Source: a virus. From it: DNA of 30,973 nt. The notes under the pieces were generated by a model. It worked only from the letters and a program-made list of their open reading frames with translations, did no database searches and had not been told where the DNA came from. Both the position numbers and the translations under genes were made by a program. Within the stretch, counting starts at the first letter, position 1; every line of letters begins with the position of its first letter. Positions 1 through 26,643 of this stretch are shown here, piece after piece. Location: positions 1 through 30,973 of IMG/VR virus record IMGVR_UViG_3300006805_000103, one strand, 5' to 3'.

Positions 1-3000
1 CCATTGCTGTGGCATCGCTGCATCCTGACAAGGGCAACCTGGCTGCCAATGAGCAGATCCTGACTCACGCTGCTCAGGGCAAGCTGAATCTGAGCCCCGA
101 TCAGCTGAACACGCTGAAGGCTTCGGTCACCCTGTTGCGTGCTCGTGCCAAGATGGAAGAGAAGATTGCTGCTTCCGGTACTCGTCGTGTCATGGATGTG
201 GTGTCCAGCCAGATCGTGGCCGGCAATGATCCCCTTCGCAAGGTGGCCAAGTCTGCCATGCAGCACACGCAGGAGATCCTGTCTGCCGTGCGTGGCCAGA
301 ACTCTGAATTGGCTACTGCCCGTCTGGAAGACTTCGGCAAGTTTGTTCAGCACATGCAGAACAAAGTGGCTGCTTTGAATACCCATTTTGAAAATGGCAA
401 CCCCAACGCAGATGGGGTGCAGTACCAACAATTGCAGCCCTCTGATCGTGACTTCAAGCTGTCCACGAAGGGCATGTTTGTCAACACCGGCAAGGGCAGT
501 TCCATCGACTTGGCCCAGTCTGCTGCCATCGAAGCTGAGATCCTGGCCGATGTCTACAACGGCCTGGTGGAGACCTTCCCTGAACTCGGTCAGCCTACTA
601 TCGCTGCAGTGCCTCTGAATGCTGCGCTGATTGGTGATGCTGAAACCTTGGCTCAAGGCTTCCGTGATGCACGCAAGACACCTGAGCCGAAGAAAAGCAC
701 TTCTCCTGTTGAGCCTGCTGTTTCAGCCGTTGAGGCAAATGTGCGTCGCATGACTGACGCTCAATTGAATGCGCGTTTGGAGAAGACGACAACCAATGAT
801 CCATTGTTCAGCGTTTTGGATGCTGAGATGACCCGTCGTGAAGATGCAGCTGTCAAGCAACTCAAGGAGTCCAATGATGCAGACCGAAATGTCGATGGTG
901 AGTCAAGTGCCGTGGTACCTGCACGAGATGTACGGGTGGCAGTTCGGGATGAAGCAGTCGATTCAACTCCTCCAGCAGCAAAGCCTGCTGACAAAGGACG
1001 AAGCGAAGCAGTTCCTCAAGCTGTGGAAAAAGGGCGGGACAGCGCCCCCGCACCTGTGGCCGAAGTGCGAGATCCTGTACCTGACGCAGTTGATGCCAGC
1101 AAATCGGCTACCCCTGTAGACGGTAGCTTCCGCATTGACATGACCTCTCTGAAGAAGTTTGGTGGTTTCCTGATCCAAGAAGCCCAACTCTTTGCGGAAG
1201 GTGATGGTTCCCAGTCTCCTTGGTTGACTGCCGACGGCAAGGTCATCGGTACTGGTCAAGACCACATCTCTTTTGCTGATGCTGTTTTGCCAAACGGGGC
1301 CGTCGCCTATGACGAGTTCATGCGTGCTACTGGTGCAATCCGAGCCGCATTCTTTAAGGACGGTGATGCAGGTTTTGTGGCCATGTTGCACACCTACGTT
1401 GGGCAAAAGCTGACCGACGCTCAATTGCAATTTTTGGCTCGCTTGAGTGAATCTCAGAGCAAGCTGACCATCATGCAGGGCGAGGCTGACGGTCTGGTCA
1501 ATCCTGATTACAAGCCAACCTCTTTGGCTGAATTGGGCTACAAGGCTCCTGCTGTGGCCGATAAAGAAGCAAATCTTGATCAAGCAGCCGAGGATGCTTC
1601 ACGCTATGACGATCTTGTTGATGGGTTGCTGGAAGCGAATGCACCAACAATCACCACTCCCCTGGATGATCTCTATGGAGAGAACAACTTTGCTCGGTCG
1701 AGCTTTGTCTACCCAGAAGAAGCCACGACCCGCTTGAGTGCCGAAGAGTCTCCCATCGCTGCTGTGCGTCGTGCACTGTCGAGCGAGACCCGCTTGACTT
1801 CTTTCCTCTCTGGTTCGCCCAAGCGAAACACCCTGACTGCTGAAGCTGCCTCTGCATACCAGCGTCTGCTCACGGATACCCTGGCACCGGTGGTCATGGC
1901 CATGGAACAGCAGTTGAACGCTTTCCTGGACAGCAACTATTCCAAGAGCATCCAGAAAACGATGCGGGACATCTTCCTGAACAACCTGGAAGTTCCTCAG
2001 AAATCTGGCAAGACTCTGATGGGTTCGGAGATGAACCGAACGGCTCGTGCCAAGGTGCTGAACCTGACTCAGCTGAATGCTGATGGTGCCTTGACTTACC
2101 AACCACAGATGCTTGAGCAAGCCTCTTTGGCTGCCATGCAGTGGCTGTTGTCGTCGGACTCCTTCACCAGTGTGATGGATGAGTCTGATGTGGCCCAAAT
2201 GACTGGCCTGTCTGAGACGGTTCTCCAGCGTAACCCTGAGCTGATTGAGCAGTTGACTGAAGGCATGAGCGTTGCTCAGGCCAAGGGTTCTCTGTCCATC
2301 AAGATCCGCAAGTACATGGGGCTGAAGTCGAAGAGCACCGCTGACACGGCCTACACCAACGGCATCATCAATGCGATGGCTGCTGAGTTGCTTCGTGCCA
2401 TGGCCTCTGCTGGACTGATCGAGATCAGTGCTGTTGAGTTGACTCCTGCTGAGCACGGCGTTCCGAAGAACAAGACGTTCAATCGCATCGTCGTCAAAAA
2501 GCTGGATGACAAGGATGCTCTGGCATCCTTCCAAGACGCCATCGAAGTGGCCTCCCTTGTTGAGCCCGAAGTCACCAACTACATCGGTGACGTGACCCCT
2601 GATGTTGCCGAACGTCAGATGAACAACAACGAGGTGGCCAACACCAAGAACCAAAAGGATGCAATGGGCAAGGAGCAGCAGACCATTTTCTTGCTGAACT
2701 TGCCTGTGATCAGCTTCTATGCATCGCTGGGCAAGGACAACTTGCTGGCCATGTTTGGGACTTCGTTGGATGATGAGGATGTGTTCAACGACACTCACCT
2801 GAAATCGGTGAAGAGCAAGAACAACTCTGTGACTGCAGCTTTCGATCACCTGTTCGGTGTTCTGGCTGATGTCAGCAACGTGGCCGAAACTGCAGGCACT
2901 GCTCTGGATCAAACCCCAATCCGCTACGCCTACAACATGAGCCGAGTGGGTCGCATGCAGATGCTTGGCAAGTACGGCCCACAAGCCAGCAAGCTGGTGC

Positions 3001-6000
3001 GTGAAGCTATCCTGCCTACCCGATCCACTTTGGATCTGTCCAACCAAAACAGCGAGACATTCACTGCCTACGGTTTGGGCCTGGCTCAAGCTCTCGGTAT
3101 CAAGGTGCACAACCAACCGGCCGACGTGTCTGTGACTGAGGTCATGGCCAAGCTGAATGGTGGCCTGGCTCCTGCAGTTGAGATGGTTCGTGAGTGGCTC
3201 TCGATCGTTGATCTGAATCGTCCTGCTGAGTCAGCTTCTGAGCTGACCGCAGACCAAGTCGCCCAGCTCAAGGATGCCTTTGCTGCTGCCGAGGCTGACC
3301 TCTCGATGGTTGGTCTGCACGCCCTTGTCGACTACGCCCGATACCTGGCCAGTGATGATCAATCAGCGTTTCAGACCTCGATCTACTTGGAAGCGGATGG
3401 TGTGACCAACGGTCCCATCAATGCCATGGCTCTGATGAGCATTGGCAACTTCACGCCAGCTTGGGTGGGCAATGTGTCCAAGGGTGGTCTGGCTTTTGGC
3501 CAAGCCACCACGATGGCTGAGATCCGCAAAAGCGACTCGAAGGATCTGTATCAGGCATCTACTGATGCAACTCGTGCACGTCTGTCTGAGCTTCGGGATT
3601 CCCTGAGCCAAGAAGGTACTGAGCAAATGGATCATCTGCTCAACCTGATGTCTCTGTTCAACGCTGATGTGATCTTTGACCCAGATGCTGAATGGGAAAA
3701 GGGTGCCTTGAATTTGAAACGAGGCATTGCCAAGAACCCATTGACCATCACGATCTACGGCTCAGGTCAGTCCGGTATCGCAGGCAAGCTGACCTCTGCT
3801 CTGGTCGATGAGATCTACGCACGCATGAGCACGCTGCTGCAAGCACAGAAGACCAACCCCAACATTTCTGTGGCTGACGCCATGTTCCCTGGTGATCTTG
3901 ATGCTGCTGACAAGCTGGCTCGTTTCAGCAAGTCGATTCAGGCATTGACCACCTTGGTGCCTGTTCGTGAGAAGGGCGTTTTGTTCTTCGATGGAGTCAG
4001 CCAGCCTGCTCGCAAGTTTGTGCCCAAGACTTTCAGTTTCACAGCCAGTGAGCTGGAGACAATGGAAGCCAACATGCTGGAGCTGTTTGTCAAGCCGATG
4101 CGTCAAGGCATTACCGACACGGTTGGTGCCCCCTTGATGGAAGCCGTGGCCACTCTCCGAGATGCTGCACAAGTGCAATCGATCTTCTTGGAAGCGATGT
4201 ACAAGCAACGCATCGACGAGAAGATGACTGAGAAGGAAGCCAACGATCCGACCTGGCGTCGTGGTGACTTCCTGAGCCAAGCTGAGCTGAACAAGATCAT
4301 TGCCGATCTCCGGAGCATTTCTCCTTTGGTTCAGACAGGGGATCAATCCTTCCTCATCACCAGCAAACAGACGCTTGACCTTGAAGGTCGTGATCTGGAG
4401 TTCGGTCGTGCACTGGACAACAGTCTGCGTCCTGACCCAGACATGTTTGGTCCCGGTCAAGCCGGTGTGCGTGCCATCCCGATGCTGACCATTGGTATGG
4501 GCGACGGCATGATGATGCAGCTGTTGGCCCTGCTGGGCTTGGAAGGCACGCTCAAGATCTTCGACGGTATGAACATGCCTCTGGACAAGATTCGTCAGTA
4601 CAGCGAGCAAGCCAATGCTGCTGTTTACGAATCATGGAAGGGCAACCCTCACGCTGAGATGCTGAAGACTTTTAAGACGTTCGTCGGTAAGGTCTCTGAA
4701 GCGACGATCACTCCAGCCATGGTCCCTGCATTGACTCAAACTTTGTTCTCGTCGGCTGAGCGGCGTTCGATGGCCAAGGCCAATGTGGTGCCCAGCAATG
4801 CAATGATCATGGAACGGATCAAGCAACTGCAAGGCAGTTTGGAATGGTCTGCCAAGAGCGTCGATGCACGGCACGCTGCTATCGAGTCTCTGCCCGTGTC
4901 GGTTGACCAAATGGCCGCTGCCGGAGCCCCACATACTAATGGCCGTCCTGCTTCTAGTCGCATGACGGTTGATGAGGTTGTGGCTGCTCTGAATAAGGCT
5001 TACGACGAAGCCATGAACGGGGGCGCAACACCGAAGGCTGTCGCCCCGGCCATTGAGAAGGTGGGCCGTGTTGCTGCTTCTGGCATTCGTGTGTTGTCGC
5101 CTACTGCCATTGAATCCCTGTCCCGGACAGACATGACTGACGCACAGAAGGCCGTGTACAGCGAGATCCGCCGATCCAACGCAGTCCGTGGCTACACGGT
5201 TGTGGTTGGTACTGCTGAGCAAGTCGATGCTTTCATTTCCGAGACGGGCCGTTCTCCTCGCCCATCTCAGGAAGTTCATGGCTGGATTCAGATTGCCGAC
5301 AAGACCATCTACATAATCAACCCATCAACTGAAACTTTGGTCCATGAGTTGGTGCATGCTGCTTCATATGGAGCCATTCTGGCCCACTATCAAGGTAAGA
5401 CAGTTGGTTCTGAAGTGGCTGCTGCTATCGGTCGATTGGAGACCCTGATGGCAGAGTTTCTTGAGACCGATGTCAGCCAGTTCGACCCAGCATTGCGTGC
5501 TGCCTACGAATCGGCTAAGGCTGCGATCTTGTCTGCCAATCTGGAATCGGATCAGTCTATTGCTCAGGCTAAGGCACTGAACGAGTTCATGGCTTGGGGT
5601 CTGACCAACGAGCAACTGACCAAGGACCTGAAGAGCAAGCCTGCTCCGGTCCTGGTGCGTTTGGCCAAAGGCATCGTTGCTGCGATCAAGTCTCTGATCT
5701 GGGGCAATAAGGCTGCACCCAAGGTAGCCGATGACTTCCTCAGCAATCTGCAGTTCAACTCTGGTGTGATTTTCCGCAGCCAGCCCAGCATTGCTGCCGT
5801 GGTTCGCAGCGGAGAGCTTCATCATTCGACCGCCTACGGTAGCTCCAATCGGATGGACAGCATTCGTCAGACGTTTGCTCAGAAGATCGTTGATCTGCTG
5901 AACACTGAGAAGTGGCAACGTGGTGTCAAGATGCGTCAGGTGGAGGTCTCCCAAGCTGTCCAAGAAGCTGTCATGGTGGGCCTGTCCTTCAACGCTCACG

Positions 6001-9000
6001 GGTTCCAGATGAACCAACAAGAAGGAACTACCTTCCGGATGGTGTTGGCTGCCCTGGCCACTGAAGCTGACATCGACGCAAACTCGATGGACCGTGCACA
6101 AGAGCTGTACACCCATGTTGCCAAGACCTTGATGGTCGAAGACTTCATGGCTGACCCATCTTCGTTGGATCCTCAGATGCGTTACGACGCACAAGAGAAG
6201 TACAGCGTGATCATGGGCCAGTACCTGACAACGAAGGATGCCAAGGGCCGCAGCTCACTGCTTCCAGCATTCTTGGCCTTGGCCACAGTGAACGATGAGT
6301 TCCGTGCGGTGCTGGCCAAGATGGCTCTGCCCAAGTTCGCCAAGAACATGGACGGTACTTTGGATTCGATCCTGAGCAATGCAGGTGGTACGGTGATGGA
6401 CTCTCTGAGCCGTCGCCTGGCTGGTGATGCCAAGAGCAAATCGGTTCGTGACTCGGTCGACAACCTGCTGGAGCACATCCGCAAGGAGGCTCAGAACGAA
6501 CAGACGTTCCTCGACCAGTACGCTTCGGTTTCTGGTGGCATCGTTGATCGTGGCAATGAGATCGTGACCAATGGTCTGCAGGCTGCCTCTGATGCACTCT
6601 TGGCCCGTGCTGATGCTGCCGAGAAGAATGCATCAAATGCCTTGGTGAAGGGTGGTGCTCGTCTCGCCAAGCTGGTGGCTCTGGTCGCCAGTGAGAAGAA
6701 CGGTGCCATCATCTCTGAAGGCATCTTGACCGCTACCAATGCCAAGAAGATGTGGGAGCCTCTGCGGACTTTCATCAGTGACATGGTTGGTCGGACTGCG
6801 TCCAATGCCAACGTGTACGACATGATCAAGGCAGTGCGCTCTGCAGTGCAGCAAACTCGTCAGCAGTTCCGTGACGGTGTGCCCCAGATCATCAACAGCA
6901 AGTTCAAGAAGAAGGTGACTCCTCAGCAGTGGACTGCCATGTTCAACACCCTGGCCAAGACTGACCTGGCTGTGCTTCGTGGTTCGATGCAGCATGCCGA
7001 CATTGCAGCCCTGATCTCTGATCAGGCTGCTCGTGATGCTGAGATCAACAAGCTGGAGGCTCAGATCCAGACATCGAACCCACGTCACTGGCCAATCCTG
7101 TCGGCCAAGATGAAGCAACTGGCTGTGTTCATGAACACCGGTGTTCCTGGTGTGAACCTGCTCCGCAATGCGGAAGCGATCGGTCGACTCCTTGGCGAGC
7201 AGAAGGCCAACAACTACAGCTTGCCCAATGCTGCTACCAAGGCTGCCATCGACAAGCTGGTGAGCCTCTACGCTCTGGACACTTTGCCTGAAGCGACCCG
7301 AGCCACAGTTTCTTCTTTGGTTCAAAGCGAAGCGGATGGCATCAACTTCGTGGTTGACTACTTGGTCGGTCAGCGCAAGGAAGAAGTTCGCAAGGCCACC
7401 GGCACTGCAATGCTGAATGCCTACAAGGGCTACATCCCTTCGGAGCAAGAAGCCGGGCTGTCCATGCAGATTGCCAGCGATGCTGAGTTTGCCAATCTCC
7501 GTGAGCTGGGCTACGTTCGTGTTGCCCCCTACAAGGGCAGCTCTGTCGAACTTGGCCAGGGCCTCAAGAGCTACTACTTTGCCCCGCTGTCTGGTCGTGC
7601 TGTGTTCAACCAAGGCATCATGCAGAACGTCCGCCACACTGCAGGTGGTGTTGATGCAACCTCTGGGTTCACGGTTGGCATGACTGCCGGTCGAGTTACC
7701 AGCAAGCAGCAGATCGCCCGTATCTTGGACCGCATGAGCCAAGAGAAGAGCACGGTGGAGACCTTCATGCCTGTGTACAACTCTGCCGGTGAGGTGGTTG
7801 CTCTGGAGCGGTCGGTTGATCCCAAGATCACTGCCAAGCTCAACAAGAGCACTGACCTGGCTCACATGATCGGTGTGTGGCGTGGTCGTCAAGTTGAAGA
7901 AGCCACCAGCCAGATTTACAACGAGCAGCTGATTGACAAGCTGAAGGCAATGTACGACGCAGACATGAAAGAGTCCTCTTCGAACAAAGCACAGTATGTG
8001 AATCTGTTGGACAGCAAGACGGCCAAAGAAAATCCAGTCATTGCGGATGCTGTCTCCTTGTTCACGAACGAAACCCTCGACTACATCCGTGAGAAGTTTG
8101 GTGAAGACTTCTGGGTCCGCCGTGACATGGTGCGTGATGCTGTTGGCGAGCGCTCTGCTTCTATCGGGGATCTGTGGAATGGTGTTTCGAACATGTCGAA
8201 AGACAATCGTGACCAACTTCGCAAAGCTCTGGTGGGTGCACTGGGCATTGACGCATTCCGCAAGGTCGTGACTGCTGAGCGTCTGCTGCAGAACTTCATG
8301 GCCGACATGCGGACACTGATCGTGGTCAAGTCGGTGATCGTGCCGGCCGCTAACTTCGTGTCGAACATCTATCAGTTGATCAGTCGTGGTGTGCCAATCC
8401 TCTACATTGCCAAGACCATGCCTGCCAAGCTGGCTGAGATCGACTCCTACGCCAAGACTCAGCTCCGTCAGATCGAAGCTGAAGCTGAGCTGCGGGCTGC
8501 CACTGGCAATGCTGTTGCTGAGCGGAAGCTGAAGACTGAGATCCAATCGATCAAGGATGCTCACAAGCGTATGAGCATCTGGCCTCTGATCGAAGCCGGT
8601 GAGTTCAGCTCCATCGCTGACGTGGGCATGCAGGCTGAAGATCTGGAGCTGACCTCCGGCAAACTGGCCTCCTACGTTGAACGTCTGGTGGACAAGCTGC
8701 CTGAGAGCGTCAAGACTGCCGGTCGTTACGCCATGATCACCAAGGACACTGCCCTGTATCGTGGTCTGCAGAAGTCGGTGCAGTACAGTGACTTCGTGGC
8801 CAAGGCGGTGTTGTTCGATGATCTGACCAAGCGTCAGAAGAAAACCAAGGCTGAAGCCTTGGCTCGGATCACCGAAGAGTTTGTGAACTACGATCGGTTG
8901 CCTGGTCGGTTCCGCAGCTACCTGGAGAACTCTGGTCTGCTGTGGTTCTACAACTTCAAGATCCGTTCGACCAAGGTGGCTCTGAGCACGATCCGGAACA

Positions 9001-9182
9001 ACCCTGTGCATGCTCTGATGTCGATGACACTGCCTGCCCCGGACTTCTTGGGTACGGTGGGCTCACCCATCAGTGACAACATCTTGGCCAAGTCCCTTGG
9101 TGATACTCTTGGTTCCTCGGTGGGCACTGACATGGCCTTCCGGGCACCGACGCTGAACCCCTGGATGAACATGATCCACTGA
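1..9182 (+). CDS. N4-type virion RNA polymerase (vRNAP), 5'-truncated
   Basis: Giant single-subunit RNA polymerase, packaged in the virion and injected to transcribe early genes. The frame is open to the left edge; the first possible start is GTG at 9, but the true start is probably outside. Residues are counted from that GTG. T7-family motifs appear in order: TxxGR-like SRVGR at 978-982; motif A ADGVTNG with catalytic D1130; motif B R1238-x3-K1242-x7-Y1250-G1251; motif C IFDGM with D1519. Spacing matches my recollection of N4 mini-vRNAP (D559, R666, K670, Y678, D951). About 1540 residues follow motif C, as in the 3500-residue N4 protein, so roughly 440 N-terminal residues are likely missing. 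Residues 225-372 are a Pro/Ala/Val/charged low-complexity linker. HELVH at 1779-1783 with NEF (E1859) suggests a zincin-like domain. The C-terminal region is unassigned; in N4 it is needed for packaging. Confidence 0.9.
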   Translation, partial: IAVASLHPDKGNLAANEQILTHAAQGKLNLSPDQLNTLKASVTLLRARAKMEEKIAASGTRRVMDVVSSQIVAGNDPLRKVAKSAMQHTQEILSAVRGQNSELATARLEDFGKFVQHMQNKVAALNTHFENGNPNADGVQYQQLQPSDRDFKLSTKGMFVNTGKGSSIDLAQSAAIEAEILADVYNGLVETFPELGQPTIAAVPLNAALIGDAETLAQGFRDARKTPEPKKSTSPVEPAVSAVEANVRRMTDAQLNARLEKTTTNDPLFSVLDAEMTRREDAAVKQLKESNDADRNVDGESSAVVPARDVRVAVRDEAVDSTPPAAKPADKGRSEAVPQAVEKGRDSAPAPVAEVRDPVPDAVDASKSATPVDGSFRIDMTSLKKFGGFLIQEAQLFAEGDGSQSPWLTADGKVIGTGQDHISFADAVLPNGAVAYDEFMRATGAIRAAFFKDGDAGFVAMLHTYVGQKLTDAQLQFLARLSESQSKLTIMQGEADGLVNPDYKPTSLAELGYKAPAVADKEANLDQAAEDASRYDDLVDGLLEANAPTITTPLDDLYGENNFARSSFVYPEEATTRLSAEESPIAAVRRALSSETRLTSFLSGSPKRNTLTAEAASAYQRLLTDTLAPVVMAMEQQLNAFLDSNYSKSIQKTMRDIFLNNLEVPQKSGKTLMGSEMNRTARAKVLNLTQLNADGALTYQPQMLEQASLAAMQWLLSSDSFTSVMDESDVAQMTGLSETVLQRNPELIEQLTEGMSVAQAKGSLSIKIRKYMGLKSKSTADTAYTNGIINAMAAELLRAMASAGLIEISAVELTPAEHGVPKNKTFNRIVVKKLDDKDALASFQDAIEVASLVEPEVTNYIGDVTPDVAERQMNNNEVANTKNQKDAMGKEQQTIFLLNLPVISFYASLGKDNLLAMFGTSLDDEDVFNDTHLKSVKSKNNSVTAAFDHLFGVLADVSNVAETAGTALDQTPIRYAYNMSRVGRMQMLGKYGPQASKLVREAILPTRSTLDLSNQNSETFTAYGLGLAQALGIKVHNQPADVSVTEVMAKLNGGLAPAVEMVREWLSIVDLNRPAESASELTADQVAQLKDAFAAAEADLSMVGLHALVDYARYLASDDQSAFQTSIYLEADGVTNGPINAMALMSIGNFTPAWVGNVSKGGLAFGQATTMAEIRKSDSKDLYQASTDATRARLSELRDSLSQEGTEQMDHLLNLMSLFNADVIFDPDAEWEKGALNLKRGIAKNPLTITIYGSGQSGIAGKLTSALVDEIYARMSTLLQAQKTNPNISVADAMFPGDLDAADKLARFSKSIQALTTLVPVREKGVLFFDGVSQPARKFVPKTFSFTASELETMEANMLELFVKPMRQGITDTVGAPLMEAVATLRDAAQVQSIFLEAMYKQRIDEKMTEKEANDPTWRRGDFLSQAELNKIIADLRSISPLVQTGDQSFLITSKQTLDLEGRDLEFGRALDNSLRPDPDMFGPGQAGVRAIPMLTIGMGDGMMMQLLALLGLEGTLKIFDGMNMPLDKIRQYSEQANAAVYESWKGNPHAEMLKTFKTFVGKVSEATITPAMVPALTQTLFSSAERRSMAKANVVPSNAMIMERIKQLQGSLEWSAKSVDARHAAIESLPVSVDQMAAAGAPHTNGRPASSRMTVDEVVAALNKAYDEAMNGGATPKAVAPAIEKVGRVAASGIRVLSPTAIESLSRTDMTDAQKAVYSEIRRSNAVRGYTVVVGTAEQVDAFISETGRSPRPSQEVHGWIQIADKTIYIINPSTETLVHELVHAASYGAILAHYQGKTVGSEVAAAIGRLETLMAEFLETDVSQFDPALRAAYESAKAAILSANLESDQSIAQAKALNEFMAWGLTNEQLTKDLKSKPAPVLVRLAKGIVAAIKSLIWGNKAAPKVADDFLSNLQFNSGVIFRSQPSIAAVVRSGELHHSTAYGSSNRMDSIRQTFAQKIVDLLNTEKWQRGVKMRQVEVSQAVQEAVMVGLSFNAHGFQMNQQEGTTFRMVLAALATEADIDANSMDRAQELYTHVAKTLMVEDFMADPSSLDPQMRYDAQEKYSVIMGQYLTTKDAKGRSSLLPAFLALATVNDEFRAVLAKMALPKFAKNMDGTLDSILSNAGGTVMDSLSRRLAGDAKSKSVRDSVDNLLEHIRKEAQNEQTFLDQYASVSGGIVDRGNEIVTNGLQAASDALLARADAAEKNASNALVKGGARLAKLVALVASEKNGAIISEGILTATNAKKMWEPLRTFISDMVGRTASNANVYDMIKAVRSAVQQTRQQFRDGVPQIINSKFKKKVTPQQWTAMFNTLAKTDLAVLRGSMQHADIAALISDQAARDAEINKLEAQIQTSNPRHWPILSAKMKQLAVFMNTGVPGVNLLRNAEAIGRLLGEQKANNYSLPNAATKAAIDKLVSLYALDTLPEATRATVSSLVQSEADGINFVVDYLVGQRKEEVRKATGTAMLNAYKGYIPSEQEAGLSMQIASDAEFANLRELGYVRVAPYKGSSVELGQGLKSYYFAPLSGRAVFNQGIMQNVRHTAGGVDATSGFTVGMTAGRVTSKQQIARILDRMSQEKSTVETFMPVYNSAGEVVALERSVDPKITAKLNKSTDLAHMIGVWRGRQVEEATSQIYNEQLIDKLKAMYDADMKESSSNKAQYVNLLDSKTAKENPVIADAVSLFTNETLDYIREKFGEDFWVRRDMVRDAVGERSASIGDLWNGVSNMSKDNRDQLRKALVGALGIDAFRKVVTAERLLQNFMADMRTLIVVKSVIVPAANFVSNIYQLISRGVPILYIAKTMPAKLAEIDSYAKTQLRQIEAEAELRAATGNAVAERKLKTEIQSIKDAHKRMSIWPLIEAGEFSSIADVGMQAEDLELTSGKLASYVERLVDKLPESVKTAGRYAMITKDTALYRGLQKSVQYSDFVAKAVLFDDLTKRQKKTKAEALARITEEFVNYDRLPGRFRSYLENSGLLWFYNFKIRSTKVALSTIRNNPVHALMSMTLPAPDFLGTVGSPISDNILAKSLGDTLGSSVGTDMAFRAPTLNPWMNMIH
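877..1119 (+). CDS. Candidate overprinted gene inside the vRNAP linker (80 aa)
   Basis: This frame is shifted by +1 relative to vRNAP and encodes 80 residues. An AAGGAG Shine-Dalgarno at 864-869 lies 7 bases before ATG 877; an alternative ATG is at 874. The product looks like a folded protein: four Trp, three Tyr, a Gln/Leu-rich central helix-like stretch, then LTKDEAKQFLKLW and a Pro/Trp/Cys tail ending in ANRLPL. In the same stretch the vRNAP frame is Pro/Ala/Val/Asp/Lys low-complexity, with repeated GTA, CGA and CGG codons that are less usual elsewhere in that gene. That is what is expected if the second frame is the constrained one. I do not recognise the product. Alternatives are a captured gene fragment now used only as linker, or chance. 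The function is unknown. Confidence 0.5.
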   Translation: MQTEMSMVSQVPWYLHEMYGWQFGMKQSIQLLQQQSLLTKDEAKQFLKLWKKGGTAPPHLWPKCEILYLTQLMPANRLPL

Positions 9183-16145: not shown

Positions 16146-16880
16146 TCAGCCCATTGCTTTGATAACACATCGTCGGATCAGTTCCTCGGATGCGTCGATT
16201 GGAATCCCGATTTCCTCGCACCACGTTGGCCAGAAAATGGAGAGTTCACCTCCAAGTTTGACTTCGTCATGCTGGATGTCGGGATGGTCCTGCCACTGCA
16301 CAGCCTTCACGAGGTGCTCATTGGTGTACATGACTGCGTTGATGTCATCTCGGACAAGCATGTACTGGGCATCGTGAATGTGGGCACATGGCCGGATGTT
16401 GAGACGGTGTTCGGATTTGCGAACACCATCCATAAATTCTGCACTGGCTCGGCTATTCAGTAGACACCAAGATTGACCAAGAGCGTTGCCGGCCGTTCGG
16501 CCTTCTGCCTCAGCTTCATAAGGTGTCTTGCTGTTGCCACGGATCACCTGTTTCAGTAGTGGTGTGCGGAGACGCAAACCAAATGCTGCGGTGATGTAGC
16601 CATCCTTTGAAGCCTGATCCAGTTTGGCTTGCACCCAGGCATCACTCACCTTGTAGAGTTCGTGGTACCGAGCCTCCACCATCAATGCCTTTTCTTTGGA
16701 GAAGCCGCAATTCTTGATGAGGGTGATGTACGTGCCCTGGTAGGTCAGTGCAAAGGTTGGTGCCTTGCTGTCTTGTCGATGGGGCTTGTAGAGGTCCTGG
16801 ATCGAATTGATCTCAGCGACGTTGAAATCCCGAGGCGGGATCTCCTCTATCTTGGCTCCAGGCTTGAGTTGAATTTGCAT
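16146..16880 (-). CDS. DNA polymerase, C-terminal half (motifs B and C), 244 aa
   Basis: This carries the fingers and the second half of the palm of a family A (Pol I type) replicative polymerase like N4 gp39. Motif B is R35-x3-K39...TYQGT (Y47, G49), which binds the incoming dNTP. Motif C is HIHD, with D170 as second catalytic Asp. ATG 16880 has GGAG 6 bases upstream. An alternative ATG at 16931 overlaps the stop of the N-terminal half by ATGA and would read through the terminator stem. Alone this half lacks motif A and the exonuclease, so it must pair with the 716-residue product next door. The first 20 or so residues (MQIQLKPGAKIEEIPPRDF) are not polymerase core. Confidence 0.9.
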   Translation of the reverse strand: MQIQLKPGAKIEEIPPRDFNVAEINSIQDLYKPHRQDSKAPTFALTYQGTYITLIKNCGFSKEKALMVEARYHELYKVSDAWVQAKLDQASKDGYITAAFGLRLRTPLLKQVIRGNSKTPYEAEAEGRTAGNALGQSWCLLNSRASAEFMDGVRKSEHRLNIRPCAHIHDAQYMLVRDDINAVMYTNEHLVKAVQWQDHPDIQHDEVKLGGELSIFWPTWCEEIGIPIDASEELIRRCVIKAMG

Positions 16881-16892
16881 GGTTGCTCCAAT

Positions 16893-16921
16893 AAAAAGCC
16901 GCCCACATTTCTGTAGGCGGC
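16893..16921 (-). terminator. Intrinsic terminator between the two DNA polymerase halves
   Basis: On the - strand, GCCGCCTACA, GAAA loop, TGTGGGCGGC is followed by TTTTTATT: 10 bp including one G-U pair and a GNRA tetraloop. It lies between the stop of the N-terminal half and the Shine-Dalgarno of the C-terminal half. Confidence 0.85.
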
Positions 16922-16927
16922 CCCCTG

Positions 16928-19078
16928 TCATGAGGTGAAGTGGTCTTCCACATTCACGACAGTACCATCTGGTAGGGCGACAGTATCCCCTTGCACCAGA
17001 TAGATTACTTCGTCACCTTGGGTGACACGAAAAGCTCTCACACCTTCCACTTGTCGGATCAATGGCATCTCTGAACCAAAGTAGGCATAAGCACGCAGAC
17101 TGTGGCCGTCGTAGCCGTCGGTGTAAACCTTCAGCTTGTTCGGGTCCTTTGTCGTCAAGGCACTGATGCGGTCTTCGAGAGATGCGAAGTCCAAACCACA
17201 AAACAACCATCCAGGTGGTGCTTGGAAGCAGCTCTTGATGAGCTTGCCCAAATGGAGTTTGCCCTTCTTGATGAACTTGCCGGCTCCCATGGATTCCAGC
17301 AGCACCAGCACAGCAGCCACCAATGCGACTTCCACGTTGGCAGGGAGGTTCTGCAGGTTGGGCTCGCTTGAGCTGAGCCGACCAGACAAAGTTCCACCAA
17401 GGTTGAAGTTGCCGAACAGGTAGTGCCAGCCGTCAGGTCCGAGAGCAGCATTCTTCATCGCTGGGATGAACGATGTGAGGATCTTGTTCACGGCACCATA
17501 GTCGAGCATGGCTGCAAGGAACTCTCTCACCTCGGGAGTCTTGGCGTGATTGACCAAGGCTTCCAAAGTGTCACGATCAACCGAGGGTTGCTTGCTGTCT
17601 GTCAGCCCGATGACTGGCATCTCCAAGATGTCAAACAGGATCTCTTGAAGCTGTGGCCCAGAGTTGGGATTGAAAGTGATTTCCTTTCGGATCGCTTCAG
17701 AAGTCTGGCTTGCTGCCAGCATCTCCTGAACCGTCAACCGCTTCTTCTTCCATTCCTGGTTCTTCACCTCGGTGAATCGCTCAAGGCGGGTGTACTCGTA
17801 CTCCTGGATCAGCTTGCATTGGCGGATCGTATTCAGAGCATGGTCGTAAACCACGGTCAGAATGTTCTCTACCTTCAGGACTTGCTGCATGTTCAATGGC
17901 ATGCCAGTCAACTGCATCTGGATGATGTCAGTCGTCGCCGGCTTGAACAGACTTTGGTACACGTTCAGCTGTTGATCGTCGACCATTGTTTGGTAGTGCT
18001 TTTCGTGCACATACCAAGTGGAGAGGGCGTCGACCAAGTTGTACCGCAAGAGCTTTGGCAAAGGGATCTTCGTGATGTCCTTGATGTCATCGTCGTTCAT
18101 CGCGTAGTTGCCTGAATACTCCTGAGACTGATCCTTGAGGCCCAGTTTGTTGCCGGCACAGCTGTTGGTGGCCAGGTAGGTGATCAGCTTGGTGTCGTCC
18201 CAGCATCGCAGCATGACATCAATGCCTTCGAGCAAGCCTTCTGTGTCCAGCAGGTCTTTCATGTAGAGCTGATAGATCAACACGTACACGTCGAAGCTGA
18301 TGTTGTGCCAGATCATCTTCTTCAAATAACGATTGAAGAAGTTCTTCAGCAATGCACGCACAGGACCATTGGGCACATTGCGCCCATACGGTGCTTCAGT
18401 GGCACCATCGATCGGCTCGTAGTCCACGGCAAAGGCAATGCCTTCGTGTTTGTTCCAGGCCAATGCAATGCTACCAATGCCGGCCTTGTGATGCTTCAGA
18501 TCGAAGGCTTCAATGTCAGCAGTGAAGTCCACATTCATGGCCAGCAGCTTTTCCAAAGCAGCAGCGATTTCAGTTGGTCCGGATGGGTACTCTTCGTACT
18601 TGATGATGTCTGTGCCCGGTGCTTGGTAGCTGCCGGCGACGTGATCAAGCAGAGCATTTATGCCCTGCTTGATCTTTGCACGAACCTTTTCAGGATCGTA
18701 GAACACAGCCCGGTAGCTCGGGACGTAGACCACTTTCCATGGACCGAACACACAGTCCAACATGTAGCCCAGGTTTGCCTCAGTCTTGGCAGACTTTGTC
18801 AGCACCTTGAAATAGTCGCTGTCAGCAACGATCAGGTACTTGGCCTGGCTGTCTTGGAGCACAGGCAACAACTCGCTTTTGATGAATTGCTTCATCTCCT
18901 CGGCTGGCGTCTTCTTCTTGGTCTGGGAGTAGTGCAGGTCACAGACGAGCACGTCATCTTCTGGGATACCAAACGGAGTGAGATATTCCTTTTGGATCTC
19001 ATCCTTACGGATGGTTGGGACCAGAAACACCAGTGGGTAGGTGACCAGATCCTGTTGTGAGTAGAACAGCTGTCTCAT
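16928..19078 (-). CDS. DNA polymerase, N-terminal half (exonuclease and motif A), 716 aa
   Basis: ATG 19078 has AGGAG 6 bases upstream. Residues 1 to about 170 are an N-terminal extension. The 3'-5' proofreading exonuclease follows: Exo I DIE (D188, E190), Exo II HNISFD (N259, D263), Exo III YNLVD (Y346, D350). The thumb/palm contains SGRLSSSEPNLQNLP and motif A GLDFASLEDRIS with catalytic D630. The frame then ends after about 45 residues of non-core sequence (ending DHFTS), before motifs B and C, which are in the next gene. N4 gp39 is a single protein of about 870 residues; here the total is about 960 in two pieces. The two products presumably assemble into one active enzyme. Confidence 0.92.
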   Translation of the reverse strand: MRQLFYSQQDLVTYPLVFLVPTIRKDEIQKEYLTPFGIPEDDVLVCDLHYSQTKKKTPAEEMKQFIKSELLPVLQDSQAKYLIVADSDYFKVLTKSAKTEANLGYMLDCVFGPWKVVYVPSYRAVFYDPEKVRAKIKQGINALLDHVAGSYQAPGTDIIKYEEYPSGPTEIAAALEKLLAMNVDFTADIEAFDLKHHKAGIGSIALAWNKHEGIAFAVDYEPIDGATEAPYGRNVPNGPVRALLKNFFNRYLKKMIWHNISFDVYVLIYQLYMKDLLDTEGLLEGIDVMLRCWDDTKLITYLATNSCAGNKLGLKDQSQEYSGNYAMNDDDIKDITKIPLPKLLRYNLVDALSTWYVHEKHYQTMVDDQQLNVYQSLFKPATTDIIQMQLTGMPLNMQQVLKVENILTVVYDHALNTIRQCKLIQEYEYTRLERFTEVKNQEWKKKRLTVQEMLAASQTSEAIRKEITFNPNSGPQLQEILFDILEMPVIGLTDSKQPSVDRDTLEALVNHAKTPEVREFLAAMLDYGAVNKILTSFIPAMKNAALGPDGWHYLFGNFNLGGTLSGRLSSSEPNLQNLPANVEVALVAAVLVLLESMGAGKFIKKGKLHLGKLIKSCFQAPPGWLFCGLDFASLEDRISALTTKDPNKLKVYTDGYDGHSLRAYAYFGSEMPLIRQVEGVRAFRVTQGDEVIYLVQGDTVALPDGTVVNVEDHFTS

Positions 19079-19086
19079 CGTTGCTC

Positions 19087-19599
19087 CTAGCAAACCAGTC
19101 CTGCAACCGAGTAGGCTTGGATCAAAGGCAAGGCTCTCTCGTATGCACGCACAGCATACACATCACTCTCAATGAAGACAGTGTTGTTCTCCAAAGTTCT
19201 TTGGAGATGCGAGATCTGGGGAACCAAGTGGATCAAGCACTCAGGTAGCGAATTGCGAATGTCTTGTAGGTCATTGCAATTGATCAGAAGCGGGGTAAGC
19301 GCCTGCTTGATGCGAGCTTTGTCTCTCTCCAACTGTGCGTTGTCAGAATCAAACTGAGCCAGCTTATCGTGCAGCTCCAACGCCAAAGTAGGCATTGGGT
19401 ATTTGCTCAACACTTTTCTTTGAGACTCGTATCGTGGATCCAGATACCTCTTGCCGTGGTGCATGAACCCGAAGGATGTGTCTCCACGAAGGCTTCTGTT
19501 TGCATCAGTCAGCTCACTGACTGCTTTTCCCATTCGCTCATTGTCAGGCTGGAAGAGCTTGGCCACGATCATGTCGACCCATTCATGTGCGTTTTGCAT
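19087..19599 (-). CDS. Unknown protein (170 aa)
   Basis: ATG 19599 has AGGA about 9 bases upstream and lies 13 bases after the helicase stop; the frame extends further upstream, but only into the helicase gene. The protein is mostly alpha-helical by appearance, with a Leu/Asp/Glu/Lys-rich central region (LALELHDKLAQFDSDNAQLERDKARIKQ is helix-like over about residues 73-100) and a hydrophobic C-terminal third. No catalytic motif is visible. It lies between the helicase and DNA polymerase genes, so a replisome accessory role is possible but unproven. Confidence 0.75.
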   Translation of the reverse strand: MQNAHEWVDMIVAKLFQPDNERMGKAVSELTDANRSLRGDTSFGFMHHGKRYLDPRYESQRKVLSKYPMPTLALELHDKLAQFDSDNAQLERDKARIKQALTPLLINCNDLQDIRNSLPECLIHLVPQISHLQRTLENNTVFIESDVYAVRAYERALPLIQAYSVAGLVC

Positions 19600-21993: not shown

Positions 21994-23682
21994 TCAGCCC
22001 AACAAGGCTTTCAGGGTTTCCCCTGCATTTTCAGGCAGACCCCAGACGGCCCAGCCTTTTTTGGCCTTCTTCTTGAAGTCCAACAGTTCCTGAGCTTTGC
22101 CTGGAACACCGGCCAGAGCCTCGTCCCACATGCCGGTGACCAGTTCGGTCTGGGTGATGGGACCTTTGGCGTCCAGCTTCAGTGCCTGATCATCACCGGC
22201 CTTGAGCTTGTTGATGGCACGGACATCGACAGGAACGTCACCACGACCCACACCAGCAGCCTCCAAGGGACTGGCTTTCTTGGCGGCAGTAGTTGCCTTC
22301 TTGACGGCCACCTTTCGCTTGGCTTTCTTGGCCTTCTTGGAGATGGTCTTGCAGACCTTCTTGACGGCTGATTTCGGTGCACCAGGCACATCCTTCAGTT
22401 CATCAGCCAGAGCTTCGATCTCTGGAGGATTTTTAGCCTGGGGCGTGTCCTCAGCTGCGACAGTTGGGCTCTCGACAGGTTCATCACCAGTCATGATTTT
22501 GGTGATCTTGATGTCAGTGCCTTTCTGGCCACAGATCTTGACAGTCTCGGTGATGCCGATGTGGTTGCCTGCAATGGCTTGGCCAAGCAGTTCTTCCCCA
22601 CCCTCAGCATCAGAGATAGGCCGGTTCGTGACGATGGCAGAAAACTGCATCTGGGTCAGTTCGGCGATGATGTGGTAGCCGCAGACGCGCATTTTGTTTG
22701 CGTCGTAGTTGGGCACGGCAATCACATCTTCTGGACGAACTTTGGCCAGCACCACCACATCACCACTGAAGCTGTTGATGTAGCCGCGACGTGCCACATG
22801 AAGGCCATTGGAGCACTCGTTGCGGCGGTTGTGATCCACCAGAGATGGATCCATGTGCACGTAAGAGCCTACTCGTTGAGTGACCTTCTTGGAGTGCACA
22901 TCCACATAACCATCACCACGGCGTTCGAGACGCTTGTAGATGATGATCGTGCCGTCATTGGCAATGGGCAGATCCCCACGTTCCATGAAACGCAACAGCT
23001 CATCAGGTGTGTGCTGACGTTGGCTACGGACAGCAGCCAGTCGTTCCAGGAAAATGGTCAAGCCCTTGGCATCGCCTTGCTTGGCCGCAGCTGCAAACTG
23101 GGATTTGATGCGTTCCACGCCAGTGACGATACCGCCCTTGGGCGTGATGGCCACAATGGTGTCTTCGTGTTTGGTGTGGTAGCTGTCGGTCCCGTCTTCA
23201 GTGCGATCGGAGGGGGTGCTGTTCTGGCCCTCGACCACAGGCCGCTGGGGAGCAACCTTCTGTTCGTTGAACTCAGCGGCAGCCACAGGGGTAGCATGCT
23301 TCAGGATCTCGGTCACAGCAGCCATGTTCTTGTCCACTTGGTTCTCACGAACACGGTCGGCAACAGACAGGTCACCGACAGCTTGTGGAGGGACCACAGC
23401 AGGGTCTTCCTTGGACTTGAACAGGCTTGCCAATTTGGACTTGGCAACACGGAACAGGCGAACAGCACTGTTGGACTTCTCTTCGAATTCCTTCCAGGTG
23501 TTCTCCACAGACAAATCCACGTCGGCCCAACCTTGGTTGGCCAGAAGCGGGGTGACGTGTTCCAGCAAGGGACGCAAGCGTTTGTCCCCTTGCAGCAGTT
23601 CGACGGTTGTGCCGTCTTGTTTGTACAGGATCGCCTTTTTGGTATCGACGATCACCGCAACAATGCGTGTCAGGTTGGTCAT
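21994..23682 (-). CDS. rIIB: rIIB-like protein with histone-H1-like insert (562 aa)
   Basis: ATG 23682 has AGGAG 6 bases upstream and starts 8 bases after the rIIA stop. The rIIB-type core is clear in about residues 190-370: GLTIFLERLAAV, LLRFMERGDLPI, GTIIIYKRL, CSNGLHVARRGYI and VVVLAKVRPEDVIAVP. The N-terminal 60 residues also look folded. T4 rIIB is about 310 residues; the extra length is a charged linker near 75-185 and a C-terminal extension. That extension includes a Lys/Ala-rich stretch like histone H1 (VKKVCKTISKKAKKAK and onward, roughly 440-470), then an ordered end. rII proteins are associated with the cell membrane and exclusion phenotypes in T4; the molecular role here is unknown. 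Confidence 0.85.
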   Translation of the reverse strand: MTNLTRIVAVIVDTKKAILYKQDGTTVELLQGDKRLRPLLEHVTPLLANQGWADVDLSVENTWKEFEEKSNSAVRLFRVAKSKLASLFKSKEDPAVVPPQAVGDLSVADRVRENQVDKNMAAVTEILKHATPVAAAEFNEQKVAPQRPVVEGQNSTPSDRTEDGTDSYHTKHEDTIVAITPKGGIVTGVERIKSQFAAAAKQGDAKGLTIFLERLAAVRSQRQHTPDELLRFMERGDLPIANDGTIIIYKRLERRGDGYVDVHSKKVTQRVGSYVHMDPSLVDHNRRNECSNGLHVARRGYINSFSGDVVVLAKVRPEDVIAVPNYDANKMRVCGYHIIAELTQMQFSAIVTNRPISDAEGGEELLGQAIAGNHIGITETVKICGQKGTDIKITKIMTGDEPVESPTVAAEDTPQAKNPPEIEALADELKDVPGAPKSAVKKVCKTISKKAKKAKRKVAVKKATTAAKKASPLEAAGVGRGDVPVDVRAINKLKAGDDQALKLDAKGPITQTELVTGMWDEALAGVPGKAQELLDFKKKAKKGWAVWGLPENAGETLKALLG

Positions 23683-23690
23683 GATGACTC

Positions 23691-26315
23691 CTAGTTGATG
23701 ATGAGTTTCAGAATGTCTTTGACTTTCGTCATGGCAGCTTGATCTCCCGAGTGCTTGGTGGAATACCTCTCCAAGTTGTCGTAGTCGAGCAACCCGATCA
23801 AAGGATTGGCGATGAGCTTGTCCAGGAACTCCTTGACCTCATCGCACAATTCAATAGCCCTCATGGTCTCTTTGGCTTCTTGGATCTCCTTTTGCGAATG
23901 GAACCGGTAATTGTCCTTGACGTTGCGCCAAACGACAATACGAAGTTGATCTTCGAAGGACAAGGATGTGAATCCAGGTACCAACGCGCACAGTTCGTTA
24001 TTGCACAACAGCATGCAATAGACTTTGCGGATCATCTCGCCTTCGTGGTAGCCCCCGCATTTGGAATGAATGTAGGCGCTTGCGCTCAACTCGTCGTACT
24101 TCATGAACTCCAGGATTTCTGGCTTCACAACGATTTCGTTGGCAATACGATCCATCAAAAATTTGCTGATGTCCATGGTGCCCTTTTTGATCTGACGGGC
24201 GTAGACCGCTTGGTTGTTGGTAACGGCTCCTTCTGAGCCCCAGAGTGCTGCAACTGTATAAGCCATAGCGGGGTTAAGAAGACCCGTTTCCTTGCGAAGT
24301 TCCTTGCTAGTCGAAACTTTCTCAATGAAGGTCGGCTCTGTGATGCGAACTGGGTCTGCTTCAGTGATCAGCATCTCAGTGTTGATGGCCTTGCTCAGAC
24401 CAACCATCAGAGCATCCATACGAACCAGACCAGCCCGCTTTACCTTCTTGATTGGTTCGGCTTTACCGTCAGCATTCTGAGCAATGTTGGATTTGCGGGT
24501 TTGCTGAGCAGATGCCAAACGATTTTGGTACTCATCCTCCTCATGAGGCAGTCGGCCAGTCAAGTTCATCAACTCAATGCCTTCTACGGAACCAAGCATT
24601 TCCAGGACGGCAGCCGTCTTATCCTTGATTCGTGGCAACTCAATCACGAAATATGAGCCGAATTGGAATGTGCCGTTGGACTCACTCGTCTTCAGCGTTT
24701 TCATGCGTCGGGTGATGACCTGTGCGTTATGGCATACCACCACAGTTGGCTGAATCAGATGAATCAAGTTGTGCGTATGGCACGGAACGTGCACTGCACC
24801 CAGACGTTTGCTCTGAATGACGTGTCGCTCACTGGTCAGACCATTGATCTTGTTGCTCATGAACGTGATCATGTTCGTCTTCAGATCAGGAACTGCAGCT
24901 TGCAGCTTTTGAACCAAAGGAACCATCACACGCTTTCGCCACCAGTTGGTTGCTGCGGTCTGTTCGCGCAATGCACCGCCACGCACGGTGTCTGTGTAGT
25001 ACCGATAGTAGATCTCTTTGGGATCTTGCAGCCAAGCCTTGGCTTTGCGTGCGGTGTTCTGCCAGGTGCTTGTCAAGCCACGAGGGATGGTCCCTGCAGC
25101 AACCATCCCATTGAGCATGCGGTTCATCACACTCAACCACTTGTTTGTCGGAAGTCTGCTGCCACTGCCGCTGTATCGCAGCAGAACTTCTAGCATGGCG
25201 AAGTCCTCAACAGAACTGAGGAACTTCTTTTCATGGATCTTGGGGATACCAGGCACATGCCAATTATCGATGCGCAGCTTGTCTGGCACAGACACGTCAG
25301 ATGAGATGGCAGCTGCATCAACGTGTTCGATGACCATTTCTTCATGTCGAACAGTCAGCTCACGGTTTTGCATGAGCTTGGCCAAGAAGTCAGACAGCAG
25401 CAGCTTCAAGGTGCTGACGGTCAGCTCACTCATGGTCAACGATTCTCGACTGGGCGTGATGCTGATGGTGTCGGGTTGTGCCATCAAAATCAGACGGCAC
25501 TTGTAGACCTGCTGCAACAAGTTGTGGGTCTTGTTGTAGACCATCTGGATTTCGTTTGTACTTTCTACTGGATAGATCACGTTGCCGTAGCGAACGTAGA
25601 TTCGATCTCGTGTCAGATGCTCAACAGGCAGTGTTGTGTGGGCCTGATCGTTGATCAACATGAAACCGTTTTCGGCCTTGGACAGGCCCAGAACCGGCAA
25701 CTGTTCCTCATTGAGCATGGCGAGGATGTCGCCGTTGAACACCACTTGGCGGACCAGGGAATTGATGCGGTAGTCGTTTGCATCGCCTTTCAGATCGATG
25801 GTGATCTGAATGCCGGACTCTTCCGTAGGGAATGCGGCAATTTTGGTGACGCTGGGCTTGCCCATCTTCTCAGCAGAGGACTTGCTCATGCTGTAGATGG
25901 TGCGAACGCCATCATGGTGGCTGACCACTTCAAAGTGATCGGTGTAGGCAAAGGGGCTTTTGCAGCCCAGGCCGAAGCCACCGGTTTGGCGGCCATCGTT
26001 CTTCTTGGTCGATGCACCGTACACGGCGTAGACAGGACCGATTTTGTCGTGGGGGATGCCACGACCGTAGTCACGAATGACCAACTTTTCCTTGTCCAGT
26101 GTGATGGTCAGCGGGCGATCGGTACGGCCGCTGTCGATGTGCGAGTCCCAGGCATTGCAAATGGTCTCACGGACCATGGCCAGAAGAGGATCCTTGTACA
26201 GCGACTGCGACAGGATTTGAAAGAATGCCGGATCATCAGAGATACCGAAACTGATGTTGTCAGAGCCGCCCAGCACAGCATGGGTGACGTGATCGGACTG
26301 AGTTGCAACTTGCAT
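23691..26315 (-). CDS. rIIA: rIIA-like GHKL ATPase (874 aa)
   Basis: ATG 26315 has AGGAA 8 bases upstream. The N-terminal GHKL (Bergerat) ATP-binding fold is unmistakable: N-box E50-TIC-N54-AW-D57, G1 D82-Y-G-R-G86, and G2 GGFGLGCKS at 112-120. The rest, over 700 residues, has no motif I can name. Size is near T4 rIIA (725 aa) but longer. rIIA and rIIB are adjacent and in the same order as in other phages, so they probably act together. In T4 loss of either causes rapid lysis and sensitivity to the lambda Rex system. Whether this phage uses them against host defence is inference. Confidence 0.9.
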   Translation of the reverse strand: MQVATQSDHVTHAVLGGSDNISFGISDDPAFFQILSQSLYKDPLLAMVRETICNAWDSHIDSGRTDRPLTITLDKEKLVIRDYGRGIPHDKIGPVYAVYGASTKKNDGRQTGGFGLGCKSPFAYTDHFEVVSHHDGVRTIYSMSKSSAEKMGKPSVTKIAAFPTEESGIQITIDLKGDANDYRINSLVRQVVFNGDILAMLNEEQLPVLGLSKAENGFMLINDQAHTTLPVEHLTRDRIYVRYGNVIYPVESTNEIQMVYNKTHNLLQQVYKCRLILMAQPDTISITPSRESLTMSELTVSTLKLLLSDFLAKLMQNRELTVRHEEMVIEHVDAAAISSDVSVPDKLRIDNWHVPGIPKIHEKKFLSSVEDFAMLEVLLRYSGSGSRLPTNKWLSVMNRMLNGMVAAGTIPRGLTSTWQNTARKAKAWLQDPKEIYYRYYTDTVRGGALREQTAATNWWRKRVMVPLVQKLQAAVPDLKTNMITFMSNKINGLTSERHVIQSKRLGAVHVPCHTHNLIHLIQPTVVVCHNAQVITRRMKTLKTSESNGTFQFGSYFVIELPRIKDKTAAVLEMLGSVEGIELMNLTGRLPHEEDEYQNRLASAQQTRKSNIAQNADGKAEPIKKVKRAGLVRMDALMVGLSKAINTEMLITEADPVRITEPTFIEKVSTSKELRKETGLLNPAMAYTVAALWGSEGAVTNNQAVYARQIKKGTMDISKFLMDRIANEIVVKPEILEFMKYDELSASAYIHSKCGGYHEGEMIRKVYCMLLCNNELCALVPGFTSLSFEDQLRIVVWRNVKDNYRFHSQKEIQEAKETMRAIELCDEVKEFLDKLIANPLIGLLDYDNLERYSTKHSGDQAAMTKVKDILKLIIN

Positions 26316-26329
26316 GATTGTTCCTGAAT

Positions 26330-26368
26330 GAAAATGAAATCGCCCCAACATCTTTCGATGAAGGGGCG
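26330..26368 (-). terminator. Probable intrinsic terminator upstream of rIIA
   Basis: On the - strand, CGCCCC, a 2x2 mismatch, CATC, GAAA loop, GATG, mismatch, GGGGCG, then ATTTCATTTTC. The broken U-tract makes it weaker than the others. It lies between the 85-residue gene and rIIA. Confidence 0.65.
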
Positions 26369-26385
26369 TTACCCACAAAACGAGT

Positions 26386-26643
26386 TCAGGGTAGATGTTG
26401 GTCGGCTGGGAAGATGAAGCAATGCGCAGATCCTGGCCATGGGGAGTATTTGTCAGGCACTTCCAGAAATCCGCAGATCGGAGCAGGTACTTTAGGCATC
26501 TCATCTGCTTTCACAACCACAAGGCCATTGATGGCACAGGCCATGTAGAAGTCTGCGATGTTGCCATTTATCGGCTCCGACATCATGAGCCTGTACGCAG
26601 GCTCGATTGCCAATCGTGCAGCGTTGTACTGATCAATGTTCAT
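26386..26643 (-). CDS. Small unknown protein (85 aa)
   Basis: ATG 26643 has AAAGGA 7 bases upstream and overlaps the previous stop by ATGA. It contains IADFYMACAINGLVVVK, an A/M-rich helix followed by NGL, which resembles WNGLFLMGLAMNGLDLIP in the gene just upstream. The C-terminal half has ICGFLEVPDKYSPWPG and ends Pro/Trp/His-rich. The two may be diverged tandem copies. The function is unknown. A probable terminator follows, before rIIA. Confidence 0.7.
   Translation of the reverse strand: MNIDQYNAARLAIEPAYRLMMSEPINGNIADFYMACAINGLVVVKADEMPKVPAPICGFLEVPDKYSPWPGSAHCFIFPADQHLP

Follow-up and report, generated by a model that had tools for sequence, protein, structure and literature searches.

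The virion RNA polymerase (vRNAP) gene at the 5′ end of this contig carries a single HExxH motif well downstream of the polymerase module, which raises the question of whether the motif marks a metallopeptidase joined to the polymerase in one chain and, if so, whether such a domain is new and what it may do. The window, that is, the whole stretch of DNA analysed, is a virus contig of 30,973 bases. Its vRNAP open reading frame (ORF; 3..9182, + strand), a homologue of N4 gp50, is open at the 5′ edge and covers the C-terminal 3,059 residues of the protein. PHROG 2206, ‘virion RNA polymerase’, matches ORF residues 2-3058 (E=0) from profile position 630 of 3406, which indicates that the gene is cut by the contig end; the two residue numberings in use, from a GTG codon and from the open 5′ edge, are therefore both arbitrary. 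Within the ORF, Pfam recognizes N4_RNAP_helical, vRNAP_dom, vRNAP_dom_2 and vRNAP_plug, and the nearest named phages by blastn are schitoviruses of Stenotrophomonas, Pseudomonas and Achromobacter. Judged by these sequence matches, the source phage is a schitovirus (N4-like). A sister virus, represented by two contigs, shares 81-85% of residues over the domain discussed below.

Elsewhere in the contig, a family-A DNA polymerase is split into two ORFs (16146-19093, - strand). The N part (16928-19093, -) stops about 43 residues past ...AYAYFGSEMP, in a tail that has no match (LIRQVEGVRAFRVTQGDEVIYLVQGDTVALPDGTVVNVEDHFTS), and the C part (16146-16931, -) begins from ...EINSIQD; a terminator-like hairpin with a T run lies between them. 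In Erwinia phage phiEaP8 the DNA polymerase is a single CDS of 2,697 bases. A sequencing error is unlikely to account for the split, because the split recurs in the sister contig IMGVR_UViG_3300050146_000027, where the stop falls at an identical position (96% and 93% identity for the two parts). Adjoining genes for rIIA-like (937 aa) and rIIB-like (562 aa) lysis inhibitors occupy 21994-26504 (-; PHROGs 2979 and 2886).

The HExxH motif of the vRNAP, HELVH (5343..5357, +), is in frame with the ORF and is the only HExxH among its 3,059 residues, where 0.02 would be expected from composition. In the numbering of protein P0001, which starts at the open 5′ edge, its histidines are H1781 and H1785 and its glutamate is E1782, which by homology would serve as two zinc ligands and as the general base, respectively; E1861 in the downstream block LNEFMAW (5583..5585, +) is the third zinc ligand by homology. 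The initial annotation had named H1779, H1783 and E1859, which are the same residues counted from the GTG at nucleotide 9. The motif lies C-terminal to the polymerase module in the same chain, the last part of that module (vRNAP_dom, PF21769; 4467..4922, +; residues 1489-1638, E 1.7e-41) being directly upstream of the domain. The distance from motif C, first put at about 260 residues, is about 280 if counted from the Asp of MGDGMMM (residue 1501), which we take to be motif C.

An AlphaFold2 model of the domain, built from 65 sequences (mean pLDDT 86, pTM 0.80), provides the fold that had been suggested as a check. A three-stranded sheet (model residues 76-80, 104-107 and 112-116) precedes a helix (120-140) that carries HELVH at 125-129 (block pLDDT 92-96 or better), in keeping with the helical context originally proposed for the motif; after an insert of helices, a later helix (195-212) carries the glutamate at 205 (block pLDDT 96-98), so that LNEFMAW does offer a candidate for the Glu ligand anticipated from it. 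The order beta-beta-beta-helix(HExxH)-...-helix(E) is the core given for these metallopeptidases (MPTases; Iyer et al., 2017, PMC5512222), and in the model the domain shows two features of the gluzincin type, the HExxH helix after a three-stranded sheet and the putative Glu ligand in a later helix. In a Foldseek search N4 gp50 came first (9pnr and 9pnt, E about 1e-12), and lethal factor entries came next, with E values from 0.05 upwards. By structural alignment the best solved match was likewise N4 gp50 9pnr/9pnt (Z 13.7, 199-202 residues, 4.4-4.5 A), with model residues 31-270 set against N4 gp50 2124-2348; lethal factor chains followed at Z 5.4-7.3, a level at which the tool warns of a merely common arrangement and which is inconclusive alone, and then IrrE (3.7) and collagenases (3.6). 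The alignments to zincin folds span both the HExxH and the Glu helices. The span first assigned to the domain, 5262-5640, covers its core, and the region matching solved N4 gp50 is larger, about 5061..5780 (+).

Pfam searches with the window's own domain sequence returned no peptidase family that covers it; among relatives there were two weak matches to DUF5700, a ‘putative zinc dependent peptidase’, and one weak match to a SprT-like family. A match to ‘Autoinducer binding domain’ (residues 1707-1757, 5121-5273) reached 23.9 bits against a cut-off of 23, was found in 0/64 other relatives and is probably due to chance.

Conservation of the site was followed through several sets of relatives. 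A tblastn search with the 310-residue region reached 200 phage records, the weakest at E 1e-6; 74 loci came from a viral contig collection, and a profile search yielded 80 of 152 confirmed loci. In an HMM alignment, His, Glu, His and Glu are kept in all 188 loci that cover the region (some contigs were fetched repeatedly, so that these loci are not all independent). In an alignment of 78 sequences that includes N4, the only invariant columns are E1777, H1781, E1782, H1785 and E1861; the mean column identity, calculated for the 65-sequence set, is 29%. The 78 sequences take in LIT1, KPP21, Littlefix, phiA41, P184, Pylas, TR2, EcP1 and marine roseophages and reach Litunavirus, Luzseptimavirus, Cbunavirus, Efbeekayvirus, Rhodovirinae and others. 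Many of the viral contigs were fetched with patterns that included ALNEFMA(W), and HE[LM][IV]H was among the patterns of one such scan. Since some scans had relied on the second conserved block as a pattern, a set of loci retrieved solely through the polymerase part was examined as well; these loci and the tblastn ‘phages’ matches are samples without bias for HExxH, and both agree with the pattern-fetched sets on that motif. Among the loci fetched by the polymerase part, HExxH is present in 19/19 that are long enough, as is the Glu, in a block ~80-90 residues after HExxH (NEYMAW in L099). Contig L075 is without the HExxH part only because it is cut there. Degenerate copies of the site were sought in the most divergent relatives found (Pylas, TR2, EcP1, Litunavirus, Cbunavirus and Efbeekayvirus), and all of these keep H, E, H and E, which leaves a pseudoenzyme reading unsupported. 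The two questions that the initial annotation had posed about conservation are thus answered positively: HExxH is kept in every schitovirus vRNAP checked, and N4 itself has both HELVH and LNEFMAW.

The invariant E1777 (5331..5333, +) lies four residues before the first His of HELVH and is as constant as the catalytic residues (78/78 aligned sequences). We know of no role assigned to a Glu at this position; its role is probably structural.

From the fold and the conservation, the feature is almost certainly the zincin-like MPTase domain conserved in the vRNAPs of Schitoviridae, equivalent to C1 of N4 gp50. The domain as such is already known. Iyer et al. (2017, PMC5512222) named a zincin-like MPTase domain in the N4 vRNAP, reached the lethal factor family by HHpred, described N4-like RNAPs as ‘always fused’ to such a domain and proposed autoprocessing or cleavage of host proteins; a 2021 review restated the domain and extended it to Cbunavirus (PMC8472413), and the cryo-EM preprint of Bellis et al. 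(2025, PMC12633501) delimits it as C1 (N4 gp50 2124-2375) with a conserved HExxH. The initial annotation is supported as regards the domain itself (fold, HExxH, downstream Glu and the motif in N4) and was wrong in presenting it as undescribed for N4 gp50, since the same functional ideas had been published in 2017. That remark holds only in a narrow sense: in the literature found on the N4 vRNAP there was no report of measured peptidase activity or of bound zinc, and a search of the cryo-EM preprint by terms gave no mention of zinc or another metal in the maps (PMC12633501).

If the site functions as its residues suggest, one zinc ion would be coordinated by both HELVH histidines together with the second-helix Glu, and water activated by the HELVH Glu (E1782) would cleave a peptide bond. 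The domain travels in the capsid with the polymerase and is injected together with it. The N4 vRNAP is packaged unprocessed (PMC5512222) and purified gp50 shows no reported degradation (PMC12633501), which argues against constitutive self-cleavage. Because the packaged and purified protein is full-length, the most likely role would be regulated proteolysis during or after injection, with the vRNAP itself or another injected or host protein as target.

Whether the domain is an enzyme at all has to be weighed against the possibility that the HExxH site binds zinc without proteolysis, serving the C-terminal domain as a structural clasp or in a regulatory role. In N4 this C-terminal domain is packed against the polymerase and has an inhibitory effect on transcription, with C1 contacting the polymerase by a salt bridge (PMC12633501), and encapsidation requires it (unpublished data cited in PMC4496689); the lack of proteolysis in packaged and purified vRNAP points the same way (PMC5512222, PMC12633501). 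The general base, however, is invariant in 78/78 sequences. A non-catalytic relic or a structural zinc site would not need this Glu, and its invariance argues for a working enzyme and against a purely structural zinc, which makes the clasp rather unlikely. Another kind of HExxH enzyme, such as an alpha-ketoglutarate-dependent HExxH hydroxylase, is named beside zincins as a context of HExxH in the N4 preprint (PMC12633501), but the structures that rank next to N4 in the fold comparison are zincins of lethal-factor type, IrrE, collagenases and M1 peptidases, and gluzincins are the group that has its third-ligand Glu on a later helix (PMC5512222), so that this alternative is very improbable. HExxH alone is a weak motif and could arise by chance in a helix that holds no metal; given the expectation of 0.02 in the ORF and the presence of the motif in every relative, such a coincidence is refuted by conservation and has practically no probability.

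The domain is thus probably a catalytically active peptidase, a prediction drawn from its conserved residues. That it acts on a host protein in particular is clearly less likely, and activity confined to the post-injection period and directed at a protein of the host or of the ejectosome can be put forward only tentatively. If such a post-injection peptidase exists, every schitovirus would deliver a protease along with its polymerase, an idea that dates from 2017. An active domain would join the very few non-polymerase enzymes that phage capsids are known to bring into the cell, and would do so in every schitovirus checked. With all four catalytic residues fully conserved, the prediction of 2017 becomes sharper: mutating the general base alone should give N4 a phenotype.

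Among solved structures, the nearest unrelated fold is the catalytic domain of anthrax lethal factor, a zincin, which aligns over about 155-175 residues at about 9% identity; this is a distant fold relation only and does not imply a shared function. The MPTases of polyvalent proteins (P1 DdrB, ArdC and TraC1; PMC5512222) likewise combine the core sheet with an HExxH helix and a Glu helix and are delivered with the invading element, but they occur in fusions different from the vRNAP, and DdrB is cleaved prior to packaging whereas the N4 vRNAP is not (PMC5512222). The closest known system is C1 of N4 gp50 (PDB 9pnr, 9pnt and 11gp), which occupies the same place between the polymerase and the C-terminal region. 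N4 gp50 2116-2412 is homologous to the window's region (phmmer E 5e-62; tblastn 41.5% identity, E 8e-65), and its HELVH and LNEFMAW are identical. Apart from the 5′ truncation that the contig end imposes on the window's gene, the two differ only by ordinary sequence divergence, and the window thus adds a further member to a known domain of schitovirus vRNAPs rather than a new kind of system.
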